From an uncultured Kiloniellales bacterium (GTDB lineage: Bacteria; Pseudomonadota; Alphaproteobacteria; Kiloniellales; JAKSDN01): a DNA stretch of 50,275 bases. The stretch covers positions 1-50,275 of the forward strand of contig CAMYKD010000077.1 in NCBI GenBank assembly GCA_947258885.1, given 5' to 3'. The position numbers and the translations under genes were made by a program. This document shows, piece after piece, positions 10,786 through 20,921 of the stretch. How positions within the stretch are numbered: the first letter of the stretch is position 1; every line of letters starts with the position of its first letter. The notes beneath the pieces were generated by a model, which was given only the letters and a program-made list of their open reading frames with translations, did no database searches and was not told where the DNA came from.

Positions 10786-10816
10786 GGCATAATTAGGGTC
10801 TGACCCTAATTATGCC
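10786..10816 (+). repeat. REP palindrome (GGGTC-T-GACCC family), upstream copy flanking the RAYT gene
   Basis: A perfect 31-base palindrome: 15-bp arms beginning GGCATAATTAGGGTC around a central T. It lies 72 bases before the transposase ATG. The core is identical to those at 11581–11635, 33767–33846 and 42115–42195. Confidence 0.85.
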
Positions 10817-10888: not shown

Positions 10889-11584
10889 ATGGCACGACTG
10901 CCCCGCTACCTCGTACCCGGTCAGCCCCAGCATGTCATTCACCGCGGAAACAATCGCCAGGCGGTCTTCGGCGGCGAGCAGGATTACCGCTTTTACCTGA
11001 AATGCTTGACGGAAGCTTGCCTGCGCCATGCCCTGGCGGTCCACGCCTATGTGCTGATGACCAACCATGTCCACCTGCTCGCCACGCCCGGATCCGAGCT
11101 CGGCCTGTCCAAGGCGATGCAGTCCGTGGCCGGGCGCTATGCCCAGTACTTCAATGCGGCAAACGGACGCAGCGGAGGTCTGTGGGAGGGCCGCTACAGG
11201 GCGACGCCGATCGACAGCGAACGCTACTTTCTCGCCTGCTCGCGCTACATCGAACTGAATCCGGTGCGCGCGGGGATCGTTTCCACGCCCGGTGCCTTCC
11301 CCTGGTCGAGCTACGCTTGCCATGCCGACGGCAGGGTGGACCCGCTCGTGAGCGGGCATGCGATCTACACCGACCTGGGCGCCACCGTGGAGGCGCGGCG
11401 GGCCGCCTATCGCAGCCTCTTCGACGACGAGCTTTCGGAGGCGATGGTCGGCGAGATCCGCGAGGCGACCCAAAAGGGCTGGGCGTTGGGCGGCGAGCGG
11501 TTCCGCAACCAGGTCCAGACACTGAGCGGACGCCGCGCCCGCCCGGCGCGGCGGGGCAGGCCGCCAAGGAACATCGCGCATTAA
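10889..11584 (+). CDS. REP-associated tyrosine transposase (RAYT, Y1 HUH superfamily)
   Basis: A 231-residue protein; GAGG lies upstream of ATG 10889. The N-terminus ARLPRYLVPGQPQHVIHRGNN is typical. The HUH metal motif is H60-V-H62 (MTNHVHLL), and the catalytic Tyr is Y120 in RYIELNPVRAG. A basic C-terminus ([14 protein letters not shown]) may bind DNA. RAYTs are single-copy, domesticated IS200/IS605 relatives thought to mobilise REP palindromes. Here the gene is bracketed by such palindromes at 10786–10816 and 11581–11635, and the stop codon lies inside the downstream palindrome. All catalytic residues are intact. Confidence 0.93.
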   Translation: MARLPRYLVPGQPQHVIHRGNNRQAVFGGEQDYRFYLKCLTEACLRHALAVHAYVLMTNHVHLLATPGSELGLSKAMQSVAGRYAQYFNAANGRSGGLWEGRYRATPIDSERYFLACSRYIELNPVRAGIVSTPGAFPWSSYACHADGRVDPLVSGHAIYTDLGATVEARRAAYRSLFDDELSEAMVGEIREATQKGWALGGERFRNQVQTLSGRRARPARRGRPPRNIAH

Positions 11585-11635
11585 TTAGGGTCAGACCCCA
11601 ATTAAGGCCCGTAATTGGGGTCTGACCCTAATTAA
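11581..11635 (+). repeat. Inverted pair of REP palindromes downstream of the RAYT gene
   Basis: Two 24-base units, 11581–11604 and 11612–11635, are exact reverse complements of each other with a 7-base spacer (AGGCCCG). Each unit is itself a near-palindrome around GGGTC-N-GACCC, as in the 5' copy. The TAA stop of the transposase (11582–11584) is part of the first unit. The second unit ends just before the decarboxylase gene. Confidence 0.88.
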
Positions 11636-17313: not shown

Positions 17314-17559
17314 CTAATGCTGGGGGGCGCGGACGATGATCGCGGTGATCGTCTCCTCGCCGAGCGCCTTGCAGGCTTCCAGGCGGTGCACGCCGTTGAC
17401 CAGGACGAAGCGCTCGCCGTCGCGGCGGACGCTGATGGGCGTCTGCAGGCCGACCTCGAGGATGTTCTCGGCCAGCGTCTCGACGGCCGCCGGGTCCAGG
17501 TCGCGCCGGTGCTTGGCCGGGACGTAGACCTCGTCGATCCTGATCTTGACGTCATCCAT
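17314..17559 (-). CDS. Small stand-alone ParB N-terminal-like (ParB/Srx) domain protein
   Basis: An 81-residue protein. The start at 17559 (MDDVKIRIDEVYVP) has GGAGGGGG about six bases upstream; an upstream ATG would add 20 residues. It shows HRRDLDPAAVETLAENI, GLQTPISVRRDGERFVLVNG and VHRLEACKALGEETI, the ParB/sulfiredoxin-like core in which the usual GxHR box reads NGVHRLEA. No helix-turn-helix domain follows, so it is not a chromosome-partition ParB. Stand-alone members may bind nucleotides. Encoded just upstream of the crotonase on the same strand, 99 bases apart. Confidence 0.75.
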   Translation of the reverse strand: MDDVKIRIDEVYVPAKHRRDLDPAAVETLAENILEVGLQTPISVRRDGERFVLVNGVHRLEACKALGEETITAIIVRAPQH

Positions 17560-17689
17560 CGGGACCCCCTCCGCGGCAGGCTCAAGTCTAGCAAGGCCGG
17601 CAGGCGCGCGGAACGGCAAAGCGCCCGGTCTGCGGCATTTGGTCTTGAAGCGCCTTCACCGGGCGGTCCCGGGCCGGTTAGAGTGGCCC

Positions 17690-18379
17690 ATGCCGGTCGC
17701 CGATCCCTGGTTCTATCTTGCCGCCGTGCCGGCCGTGCTGCTGGCGGGGATCTCCAAGGGCGGGTTCGGCGGCGGGCTGGGGGTCATGGCGGTGCCGCTC
17801 ATGGCGCTCTTCGTGTCGCCGGTCCAGGCCGCGGCGATCATGCTGCCGATCCTCTGCGTGATGGACATCTTCGGGCTGCGCGCCTACCGCAACACCTGGG
17901 ACCGGCGCAACATCGCGATCATGGTGCCCGGCGCGCTGGTTGGAATCCTGGTCGGCACCCTGACCTTCCGCTACCTCGACGACGGCATGATACGCCTGCT
18001 GATCGGCACGATCGCCATCGGCTTCACCCTCCACCATTTCGGCTTTACCAGCTTCGTCGCGCACGCGGGCGGCCCGCCGGTGCAGTTCTTCCTGCTGCCG
18101 CAGCGCCTGGACAAGACGCTCTATGTCGGGACCACGGTCGTGTTCTTCTTCGCGATCAACTACGTCAAGCTGGTACCCTATGGCTGGCTCGGTCAGTTCT
18201 CGCCCGACAACCTGCTGACGGCGCTCGTTCTGGCGCCTCTGGCGCCGCTCGGCATCTGGCTCGGCGTGCGGCTGCACGGGCCCGTCGGTCGCGAACTGTT
18301 CTATCGCCTCTGCTACGGCATGCTGCTCGTGACCGGGGTCAAGCTGCTGTGGGACGGCCTCTGGCCCCTGCTCACCTAG
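17690..18379 (+). CDS. TSUP/TauE-SafE family sulfite/sulfoacetate-type permease with an internal deletion
   Basis: A 229-residue membrane protein. The first TSUP repeat (LLAGISKGGFGGGLGVMAVPLMAL) and second-repeat signature (FTSFVAHAGGPPVQFFLLPQRLDK) are both clear. The family normally has about 25–30 residues between the central helix and FTSFVAHAGGPP; here FTLHH joins almost directly to FGFTSF. The join lies between two short direct repeats, GGCTTCACC (18020–18028) and GGCTTTACC (18041–18049), suggesting a slippage deletion. Loss of a central loop or helix could impair function. The stop codon TAG lies in the end of the adjacent palindromic element. Confidence 0.85.
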   Translation: MPVADPWFYLAAVPAVLLAGISKGGFGGGLGVMAVPLMALFVSPVQAAAIMLPILCVMDIFGLRAYRNTWDRRNIAIMVPGALVGILVGTLTFRYLDDGMIRLLIGTIAIGFTLHHFGFTSFVAHAGGPPVQFFLLPQRLDKTLYVGTTVVFFFAINYVKLVPYGWLGQFSPDNLLTALVLAPLAPLGIWLGVRLHGPVGRELFYRLCYGMLLVTGVKLLWDGLWPLLT

Positions 18380-18645
18380 TACCCACTTTCAGGATTGAGT
18401 ACATCGTCTGATTCCCGAGGCGCTTGTCCGGCTAGGAATGGGGGGCGAAAGCGATGCCGGGCATCGGTGAGCGCCGCTGACGACGTCCGGGCGGGCGCCT
18501 CGGCAACCCTGCGGGCGAGTTCTCAAGACCTTCGGATGTCGTCGCGCGGCCCTTGTGATGACCAACATCACGGCGGACCACGCTCCTAACCGAAGGTCTT
18601 GAGAACTCGTCATACGATGCACTCAATCCTGAAAGTGGGTACTAG
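18376..18645 (+). repeat. 270-bp nested palindromic element (MITE-like) between convergent genes
   Basis: Terminal inverted repeats of 36 bases (18376–18411 and 18610–18645, 34 of 36 matching) begin and end with CTAG. Inside is a perfect 20-base inverted repeat (18516–18535 / 18590–18609, core GAGTTCTCAAGACC) and, at the centre, a small hairpin GTGATG-ACCAA-CATCAC (18555–18571). No open reading frame of substance lies inside. The terminal CTAG supplies the TAG stop of both the TSUP gene and the MscS gene. The symmetry suggests a non-autonomous mobile element or a large bidirectional terminator. Confidence 0.8.
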
Positions 18646-20921
18646 GCCGTGGTGGAGCCCGCCGCGACGGCCGCCGCCGCCCCGGCCTGCGCAGGCTCGT
18701 TCGCCGGGGTGCTCGGCGCCGCGTGGACCTCGACCTTGCGGCGCGCGAACTCGATGCCGTTGGCCTCGAAGGCGGCTTTGATGCGCTTGTAGGCCTCGCG
18801 GCGCAGGACGAACTGCTCGCGCGGCAGGCACATGAACTTGACGCGGATGATCATGGCCGAATCGTCGATCTCGGTGACGCCCTGGGACTTCAGCGGCTCG
18901 ATCAGCTTGGGCCCCAGGTCCGGGTCCGCCATCATCTCGCGGCCGACCTGCTTCATCAGCTTCTTGACCTTGTCGATCTCGGTGTCGAAGGGCACCCGGA
19001 AGGACATCTTGTAGATCACCCAGTCGCGGTTGTGGTTGGTGATCGAGCGCAGCTCGCCGAAGGGGATGGTGTGCACCGGGCCGCGGTGGTGGCGCAGGCG
19101 CAGCGAGCGCAGCGAGATCGCCTCGACCTCGCCGCGCAGCTCGCCCATCTCGACGTACTCGCCGACCCTGAACGCGTCCTCGATCAGAAAGAAGATGCCC
19201 GACATGACGTCGCGCACCAGGGTCTGGGCGCCGAAGCCGATGGCGATGCCGACCACCCCGGCGCCGGCCAGCAGCGGGCCGATGTTCACGCCCAGCGCCG
19301 AGAGCAGCAGCATCACGGTCATCACCACCAGCACGACGACGAAGAACTTGCGGGCGAGCGGCAGCAGGGTCTTCATGCGGGCGTTCGGCTCGACCAGCAC
19401 GCCGTTCACCTCGCGCGGCACCAGCCTCCGGTCGATCCCGACCTTGATCAGCTGCCAGCCGACGTACGCGAGCAGCAGGGCGACGGCGGCGTCGAAGCTG
19501 GCCTCGACCAGCGCGTCCTGCGCCTGGGCGCCCATCTCGCCGGACAGGTTGACGCCCCAAAGCTGCAGCACGATGGCGCCGAGGCCGAGCGCCAGTACGA
19601 CGCGCAAGCCGCGCCGCATCACGCCGGCGGTGTTCGGCCCCGTCGCTCCGGCCTCTGCTCCGGCCTCTGCCCTGCCGCCGCCCATCATGTCCTGGAGGAT
19701 GTGGCAGAACCCGCGGTCGAGGATCGGGAACAGCAGGATGACGCCGACCGAGGCGGTGGCCGCCCAGATCGTCGAGGGGCCCCGCGCCAGCATGCTCATC
19801 GCCCAAAGCAGCCAGATCACGGCGACATAGAGGATGGCGAAGACGTGCCATGTGACCGCGAACTGAACGCGCAGCGGCGTCGGTTCGTCCGAATCGCCGG
19901 TTTCGGCCGGCGCCGCTTCGCCTCGGACCACCGCGGACCCGGCGCCGAGAATTGCCGCGGCGACAGCCCCGCGGGCCTGCAGGATCATGACGATCAGCAG
20001 GACGGCCATGATCGCGCCGGTGATCAAAACGATCATCAGATGCGCCTCGAGGGCCATGCCGGTCAGGATCAGGAGGCCGGCGGTCAGCCACGAGAAGACC
20101 GCCACGCCGGCCATCGGCACCGACCAGCGGAAGAGGAAGCGCGCTGCCCCGTCGCCCAGCGGCGCCAAGCGCAGGGCGGGCGTGTAGGGCGCCAGCAGGA
20201 AGCGCGACACAAGCGCCGCGCCGTGGGTGATCAGCGCGCCGGTCAAATAGGTGATCACGAATGTGCGGTCGGGACCTTCGTGGTCGAACAGCAGGACCGC
20301 CAGCCCGAAGGCGACGACGGCGAAGGCGGCGATCGCCAGCAGGTCGAAGACGCTGCGGAAGGCCGCGCCGCAGAGGCGGTCGAACAGGCTCTCGCCGGCC
20401 TGGGCCTCGATGCGCCCGCGCACCGGCGCGGCGAGGCGGCGCACGCCCCAGTAGGCCGCCGTGCCGAGCGCCAGGAGGCCGAGCAGCATGGCGGTCTGCA
20501 GCAGGAATCCGGCAAGGCCCCTGCCGCCCGAGATCCGGTCGATGCCGGTCGCAAGCGCGCCGGGCACGAGGGAGAGGCCCATGGCGACCTGGGCGCCGCG
20601 CCGGCGCAGGGTGTCCGCCATGCGCTCCAGGCCGAGGCGGATCCGCAGCAGGAGCACCCCCAGTCCGCCGTTGCCGCTCTGCTCGCCCGCGGCCTGGCGC
20701 TCGGCGCGCCCGCGCAGCTCGCCGGACAAGAGCTGGCGCACCTGGGCGTCGGTCAGGCCGGCCAGGATGCCGTCGACCTGCTCGGGCGTCAGCGTCTCGG
20801 GAAGCTCCAGCAGCGCGGCGGCGGAATCGCTCTCGGCGGCGCGCACGCCCGGCGGCGCGCCCAGGCAGAGCGCGAGCAGCCCGATACAGGCCATCCGCTG
20901 CCAGAAGCCGCTCATTGTCAT
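18642..20921 (-). CDS. Large MscS-family mechanosensitive ion channel
   Basis: A 759-residue membrane protein with a signal peptide (CIGLLALCLGAPPGVRAAE) and a periplasmic N-terminal helical region of about 100 residues. About ten hydrophobic segments follow, ending in the MscS pore module from about residue 550 (GAGVVGIAIGFGAQTLVRDV, FFLIEDAFRVGEYVE). The C-terminal cytoplasmic beta and alpha/beta vestibule domains follow (TIPFGELRSITNHNRDWV). The length and extra N-terminal helices resemble the YbiO/MscM-like group that opens on hypo-osmotic shock. The C-terminus ends in a low-complexity Ala-rich tail whose stop codon falls in the neighbouring palindromic element. Confidence 0.9.
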   Translation of the reverse strand: MTMSGFWQRMACIGLLALCLGAPPGVRAAESDSAAALLELPETLTPEQVDGILAGLTDAQVRQLLSGELRGRAERQAAGEQSGNGGLGVLLLRIRLGLERMADTLRRRGAQVAMGLSLVPGALATGIDRISGGRGLAGFLLQTAMLLGLLALGTAAYWGVRRLAAPVRGRIEAQAGESLFDRLCGAAFRSVFDLLAIAAFAVVAFGLAVLLFDHEGPDRTFVITYLTGALITHGAALVSRFLLAPYTPALRLAPLGDGAARFLFRWSVPMAGVAVFSWLTAGLLILTGMALEAHLMIVLITGAIMAVLLIVMILQARGAVAAAILGAGSAVVRGEAAPAETGDSDEPTPLRVQFAVTWHVFAILYVAVIWLLWAMSMLARGPSTIWAATASVGVILLFPILDRGFCHILQDMMGGGRAEAGAEAGATGPNTAGVMRRGLRVVLALGLGAIVLQLWGVNLSGEMGAQAQDALVEASFDAAVALLLAYVGWQLIKVGIDRRLVPREVNGVLVEPNARMKTLLPLARKFFVVVLVVMTVMLLLSALGVNIGPLLAGAGVVGIAIGFGAQTLVRDVMSGIFFLIEDAFRVGEYVEMGELRGEVEAISLRSLRLRHHRGPVHTIPFGELRSITNHNRDWVIYKMSFRVPFDTEIDKVKKLMKQVGREMMADPDLGPKLIEPLKSQGVTEIDDSAMIIRVKFMCLPREQFVLRREAYKRIKAAFEANGIEFARRKVEVHAAPSTPANEPAQAGAAAAVAAGSTTA

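Follow-up and report, generated by a model that had tools for sequence, protein, structure and literature searches.

DDE transposases of the IS630/Tc1-mariner-like and the IS5-family IS427-like kinds duplicate a TA dinucleotide, and IS711/IS6501 of Brucella belongs to the IS5 family. RIME, a palindromic repeat of Rhizobium, is shorter than the 264-bp element described here. According to the excerpted text of PMC2229807, RUP of Streptococcus pneumoniae is a bacterial MITE thought to be moved by IS630-Spn1, to which it has been tied partly by its TA targets, and CIR of Caulobacter has two arms, which arise from a pair of long inverted repeats and are connected by a linker. Bru-RS of Brucella is, in the excerpts of PMC2266754, a preferred site of IS711, which has a YTAR target and duplicates its TA. 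CGTC REPs are described, in the part of Di Nocera et al. 2013 (PMC3733652) considered here, as mostly alphaproteobacterial hairpins tagged with CGTC/GACG, with a stem of about 8 bp; they form inverted dimers, some of them within longer palindromes, and no dedicated transposase is given for them in that part. The same excerpts report that the ends of GTAG REPs often supply TAG stop codons.

The window analysed here is a stretch of 50,275 nucleotides from an uncultured Kiloniellales bacterium, in which a palindrome lies between convergent TauE/SafE (TSUP) permease and MscS-type mechanosensitive channel genes. The element is like RUP, as excerpted from PMC2229807, in being small, non-coding and dispersed, with terminal inverted repeats and TA ends and without a transposase of its own, and unlike it in its 264 bp with two conserved, covarying arms and in that no partner IS was found; the likeness is one of description. 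As an alphaproteobacterial palindromic repeat it also resembles CIR, RIME and Bru-RS, and these are possible relatives, although CIR (about 110 long) and Bru-RS (103-106) are given in the excerpted descriptions, by which alone they were compared, as shorter. IS711/IS6501 shares the YTAR/TA signature but is an autonomous IS, so that it can be likened to the element by its target alone (excerpts of PMC2266754). No name for such elements was found in the open-licence literature, and neither that literature nor Rfam offered a family where the first-pass annotation had been unable to assign one. The element belongs to a widespread alphaproteobacterial group of structured repeats that is apparently unnamed.

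Structure of the element

Folded as single-stranded DNA, positions 18370-18650 have a predicted energy of -98.9 kcal/mol, against -49.9 +/- 3.9 kcal/mol for shuffled sequences (z -12.7; none of 200 shuffles equalled the native value). The 270-bp palindrome noticed in the first-pass annotation is present where it had been placed, with both of its inverted repeats: the outer one (18375-18411/18610-18646) spans 37 nt and is 95% complementary, and the inner one (18516-18535/18590-18609) spans 20 nt and is 100% complementary. The palindrome had been described as triple-nested, and the left arm (18412-18506, 80% complementary) does not figure in that account. The predicted layout differs from that description, as an outer stem of 33-36 bp is followed by two side-by-side hairpin arms with a 9-base palindrome, CCCTGCGGG, between them, which gives a T-shaped single strand.

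The element proper (264 bp, G...C), a MITE-like insertion, was placed at 18379..18642 from two congeners, in which one TTAG links the flanks, and from the ends common to dispersed copies. On either side lies one copy of the duplicated TA, at 18377..18378 (with C at 18376, in a Y-TA-R target) and at 18643..18644 (with G at 18645), both read from the congener site and the table of copies. The left terminal inverted repeat (18379..18411, + strand) starts with GTACCCACTTTCAGGATTGAGTACATCGTC... and its outermost part is conserved in dispersed copies; the right one (18610..18642, - strand) was likewise delimited by the inverted repeat and the dispersed copies. Hairpin arm A (18412..18506, +) contains a match to R1, a covariance model of the arm, at 18421-18496 (+, 64.9 bits), with the core YAGGA...GACG at 18433-18482. 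It is separated by the mini palindrome (18507..18515), base-paired in the predicted folds, from arm B (18516..18609, -), which is inverted with respect to arm A and has its R1 match at 18526-18600 (-, 78.7 bits) and its core at 18540-18588. Reading frames inside the element do not exceed 77 aa in the mechanical ORF list, and Rfam gave no match at E up to 1 within 18000-19000.

Insertion between two overlapping genes

Both flanking genes stop with TAG at the ends of the element, as had been pointed out. The stop of the permease gene (17546..18379, +, with the start of the mechanical ORF) lies at 18377-18379 and consists of the duplicated TA and the first G of the element, while that of the MscS gene (18642..20921, -) lies at 18644-18642 and consists of the duplicated TA and the element's last base. 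Two genomes of the same genus, G002 (contig C249) and G001 (C327), have both flanking genes and lack the element, with no BLAST match there. Their flanks are 93-97% identical to the window and run unbroken through a single TTAG, and their MscS proteins are 94% and 92% identical to that of the window. The TTAG of the congeners is a tail-to-tail overlap in which one gene ends with TAG and the other with TAA on the opposite strand; the corresponding site in the window reads CTA-element-TAG. The comparison of protein ends that had been proposed as a check gave no differences, the final residues of the permease and the MscS protein being identical in the window and the two congeners. From these alignments the palindrome is to be read as an insertion and not as a fixed terminator. 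In the ancestor, the permease and MscS genes probably shared their last four bases, and the element then separated them with their proteins unaltered. An insertion next to a terminal G/C with TA duplicated rebuilds TAG on both sides, so that both stop codons survive automatically; the odd gene arrangement thus has a simple explanation, in which insertion into overlapping stop codons is harmless. The alignments also differ at about 18040, within the permease gene, where both congeners carry about 69 extra bases (23 codons, in frame), owing to either a deletion in the window genome or an insertion in the congeners.

In 15 of 34 tabulated copies, a stop codon at a junction ends a reading frame that is long and GC3-rich, and in 3 copies this holds for both ends. 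Of 50 background CTAG sites, taken from the window and the same loci outside the elements, 15 act as stops (Fisher p 0.25); an earlier background count, drawn partly from other loci and including the elements' own ends, gave 11/57. Selection for stop codons was rejected on this comparison, the frequency not being clearly above background. The coincidence follows from the whereabouts of CTAG and the TA duplication, and special targeting of stops is needless.

These data also bear on the bidirectional terminator that the first-pass annotation had offered as an alternative. In the form considered here, selection would have shaped a fixed transcription terminator or an insulator for the two convergent genes. 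Its exact position between the two genes and its very stable structure would suit such a role. However, no terminator-like site (a GC hairpin with a T-run) was found on either strand of 18200-18800, both congeners do without the element at the same locus, copies are dispersed among unlike flanks, and the stop-codon coincidence is at background level. A single copy conserved at the locus, by which a fixed terminator was to have been recognised, is the opposite of what was found. A terminator is therefore a highly improbable account of the locus, and as the origin of the element it is largely refuted.

Target site and explanation

At the borders of the 34 tabulated copies, an intact TA is found on the left in 27, with C or T before it in 24, and on the right in 23, with G or A after it in 22. 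The TA is not intact at 7 left and 11 right ends, which we counted against a TA-duplicating MITE; the damage is due either to mutation or to an element boundary less strict than stated. Both TAs are intact in 18 copies; 9 of these read CTAG on the left and on the right, and in the other 9 the 4-mers are unequal (4 TTAG...CTAG, 3 CTAG...CTAA, 1 GTAG...CTAG and 1 ATAG...CTAG). Since half of the intact copies have unequal 4-mers, the duplication would be of TA, mostly within Y-TA-R, rather than of CTAG. The first-pass annotation had proposed an element that targets or duplicates CTAG: insertion at CTAG-like Y-TA-R sites holds, while the duplicated unit is better read as TA. The 34 copies are partly non-independent, as L155/L159 and G050/G057 share sites and L143/L162 may do so, and the table leaves aside the window genome's own copy on C75, other contig-end fragments, one copy of G004 with one end (C11), L200 and genome-contig loci repeating counted genomes.

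Empty sites of copies from another genus were sought in relatives. For G044_506, CTAG stands in the one relative that was read, and for G054_55 the seven relatives read CTAG (3, one with 12 extra bases), CTAA (2), TTAG (1) and ATAG (1). Two sites fit poorly and were counted against the insertion: at G044_328 one relative has CTAA and is one base shorter while two have CTAT, and at G054_304 none of four relatives has YTAR. Empty sites with a single CTAG, for which a search had been suggested, exist in the relative of G044_506 and in three relatives of G054_55, while the empty site at the window locus is TTAG.

The element shows terminal inverted repeats, dispersed copies with unlike flanks, and target duplication with empty sites (the two poor fits apart), all of them features of a MITE, and it shares its YTAR target with TA duplication with IS5/IS427-type (IS711-like) elements. 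Judging from sequence, we put at roughly 0.85 the probability that the element is a MITE moved in trans by a putative, probably TA-duplicating transposase, and that it carries a REP-like double hairpin. The non-autonomous mobile element at CTAG that had been suggested is in keeping with the dispersed copies, the empty orthologous sites in two congeners and the empty sites of other copies. The terminal repeats would be bound in trans by a DDE transposase, either IS630/Tc1-mariner-like or of the IS427-like kind within the IS5 family. This enzyme would excise or copy the element, which would have inserted at the four bases common to both stop codons. With TA duplicated beside the terminal G/C, TAG would be restored on both sides and both proteins left unchanged, and selection is not needed to explain the "supplied" stop codons. 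The arms may then act as folded RNA or ssDNA: because they are inverted, transcription from either gene would reach a "sense" arm first, and each mRNA would gain a stable 3' hairpin in either orientation.

Dispersed copies

Searching the genome and its relatives for the terminal repeat, as had been recommended, brought out dispersed copies, the flanks of which differ from one another. The window genome has 3 family members; the two others have slightly different ends, and one of them is cut by a contig end while the other is single-armed (188 bp). Of 98 relatives (window genome included), 16 match the element at E up to 0.001, with copy numbers that are lower bounds, as seven candidates were scored per genome. 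G004 has at least 7 matches spanning the element from end to end; with a further copy, on C28, in which both ends are present, it has at least 8 full-length copies; G007 and G021 also hold copies, and further families of the order are represented. In 61 genomes of the order, a search for the end with up to 2 mismatches gave matches in 8.

Plasmid records contained one partial match (S. fredii) and none for the element of another family. A match of 40 bases inside a resolvase gene, in two records of one Gordonia phage, was taken as chance. No stretch with the exact end was found in viral contigs, in which 7 stretches matched a loosened end. In genome contigs no stretch had the strict end and 84 matched the loosened one, of which 80 were taken as loci: 39 (alphaproteobacterial or unassigned) were analysed, 7 further ones scanned with R1 gave no match, and 34, mostly from Bacteroidota and Bacillota, were taken as chance. 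Among the 39, ends are paired within about 390 bases; some more distant pairs, e.g. in L160 and L130, are weak, with up to 6 mismatches.

Some copies are modified. In L046 (1225-1600; G021, C612), a different CTAG-ended palindrome is inserted in one arm, at the arm's CTAG, so that CTAG-targeting palindromes nest in each other, and in L160 (700-880) a degenerate copy directly adjoins a short CTAG...CTAG palindrome. Longer copies are found in L200, the arms of which are enlarged by additional GC-rich palindromes, and in L155 and L163 (about 390 bp).

Conservation of the hairpin arms

We aligned 32 arms, selected by a pattern containing AGGA and GACG, from elements whose ends are of several kinds. 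One side always reads AGGA and the opposite side always GACG (internal loop), and the tip is GATG...CATC. Pair cells of the alignment are standard in 92.9%, against 69.7% after shuffling and 36-47% in slid controls. Compensatory change occurs in 16 of the 21 base pairs, where shuffles average 13.8 and 9 of 500 are as high; as the aligned arms are related, shuffles overstate significance, a fault that the slid controls do not share, although they favour the chosen structure. Under stricter filters, R1 has matches in 27 of 240 alphaproteobacterial genomes, including the window genome. There are 31 matches in the latter (partly checked by eye), 31 in G164, 30 in G118 and 19 in G254, and there is one in an S. 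fredii plasmid. Of 61 non-redundant R1 matches, at least 60 retain each of five bases, namely A, G and G in AGGA and A and C in GACG.

Keeping their pairing through compensatory change, the arms would work in a folded, single-stranded form, either RNA or ssDNA. An excess of G.T over A.C cells gives a hint of the folding of one strand: it is 22:2 in the inner stem of 19 filtered related arms, and 110:10 in model-aligned arms, a figure biased by the model, with 29:8 for the anchored stems of the same set. It drops to 26:16 (p 0.16) unfiltered, and an outer-stem control gives 35:35.

The tag of CGTC REPs, GACG on the other strand, is present in 32 of 32 arms, which were picked for it, and its A and C are kept in 60 of the 61 R1 matches. 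However, the core of ~50 nt has an 8-pair stem, an internal loop and a second stem, where the excerpted text of PMC3733652 gives CGTC REPs a stem of 8-9 bp with a loop of 4-5 nt; the first stem pair is G-C in 26 of 32 arms, where that text has A-T in the first two pairs; the unpaired CCA tail is not matched, the arms reading TCCTR on that strand; and the tags face inwards (TT in its terms), while CGTC REP dimers are mainly HH in the same excerpts. Tag, stem length and clade are thus like those of CGTC REPs, but loop, first pair and tail are not, and the arms are not classed with them.

Search for a mobilising enzyme

The arms raise the possibility of a REP-type element, i.e. a dimer of GTAG/CGTC repeats, which a RAYT tyrosine transposase would move by recognising a single-strand hairpin, with the outer repeat as a coincidental palindrome. 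The GACG-tagged inverted dimers would fit, as would the predominance of CGTC REPs in alphaproteobacteria and the dimers inside palindromes reported in the excerpts of PMC3733652, and the 22:2 ratio of G.T to A.C hints at a folded single strand. Yet RAYT genes (PF01797) occur in only 5 of 9 tested genomes with arms or their TIR family, none being found in G004, G254, G164 and G118, and no R1 arm is significant in 6 RAYT-gene loci (best E 0.98), so that a RAYT was rejected as partner. The TA borders and long terminal repeats are a misfit as well, and the G.T excess weakens without filtering. We consider this origin highly improbable. The window contains a gene for a Y1 (RAYT/TIRYT-like) transposase at 10889-11584 (+). 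Palindromes of the TAATTAGGGTCTGACCCTAATTA type flank this gene (10790-10812, 11582-11604 and 11612-11634), and no arm like those of the element was found near it.

For the MITE moved in trans, a partner with the same ends was looked for. In the window genome (97% complete), the 18-base end with up to 3 mismatches gave 5 matches only, all from the three known copies, and no autonomous partner with these ends was found in the 61 genomes of the order (<=2 mismatches) or the 39 loosened-end loci; the genomes are drafts in which many copies run off contigs. An IS630 partner was tried and rejected: in 12 DDE_3 loci from 5 of 8 genomes the ends are absent (best match 14/20). In one of five such loci that were checked, inverted repeats of 14 bases lie at a distance of 500-2600 bases from each other. 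A second terminal-repeat type of the window genome has 28+31 end matches. Around matches that for the most part looked unpaired, 16 regions were taken, and 10 ORFs from 6 of these regions match ordinary host families, with no transposase among them.

Unlike terminal repeats around similar arms

Thirty-two two-arm units, hand-picked from part of 169 R1 matches, have terminal repeats starting with TAGTACCCAC..., TAATACYAAAGG..., TTAGGAGTCTATC..., TAGTGTGGTGCG..., TAGAGCGGGTCAGG..., CTAGCCCGCATTT... and further sequences. Judged by eye there are about ten types, of which the window genome has at least 3. All except L226, which aligned poorly, have clear outer inverted repeats, and most borders show TA or a trace of it, although the local alignment overran a few. 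The length is 260-274 in 26 of the 32, with a typical geometry of ~266 bp.

This similarity could indicate that the two arms form a structured RNA/DNA module of their own, useful to the host, for which the TA-ended terminal repeats are changing vehicles. Similar arms within about ten unlike types, of similar length and with at least three types in one genome, speak for it; against it, a bare arm, with no clear frame of terminal repeats, came to notice incidentally at a single locus (S. fredii L220), the distribution is patchy (27/240), and the host function is a proposal only. We regard the module as possible but rather unlikely. Slightly less doubtful, and put forward tentatively, is a class-wide alphaproteobacterial superfamily of ~266-bp T-shaped elements in which selection would keep the inverted pair of 50-nt AGGA/GACG hairpins while the terminal repeats turn over, i.e. 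an orientation-independent RNA/ssDNA device carried by any TA-duplicating transposase that fits the current ends. As the arms covary while the ends differ, the function of REP-like hairpins becomes testable in alphaproteobacteria. The window genome also contains 33-base palindromes of the ATACCAAAGGTCA...TGACCTTTGGTAT type (e.g. L366 441-473, L369 4920-4952 and L374 4902-4934), which consist only of the terminal repeats of a second family and are perhaps deletion remnants.
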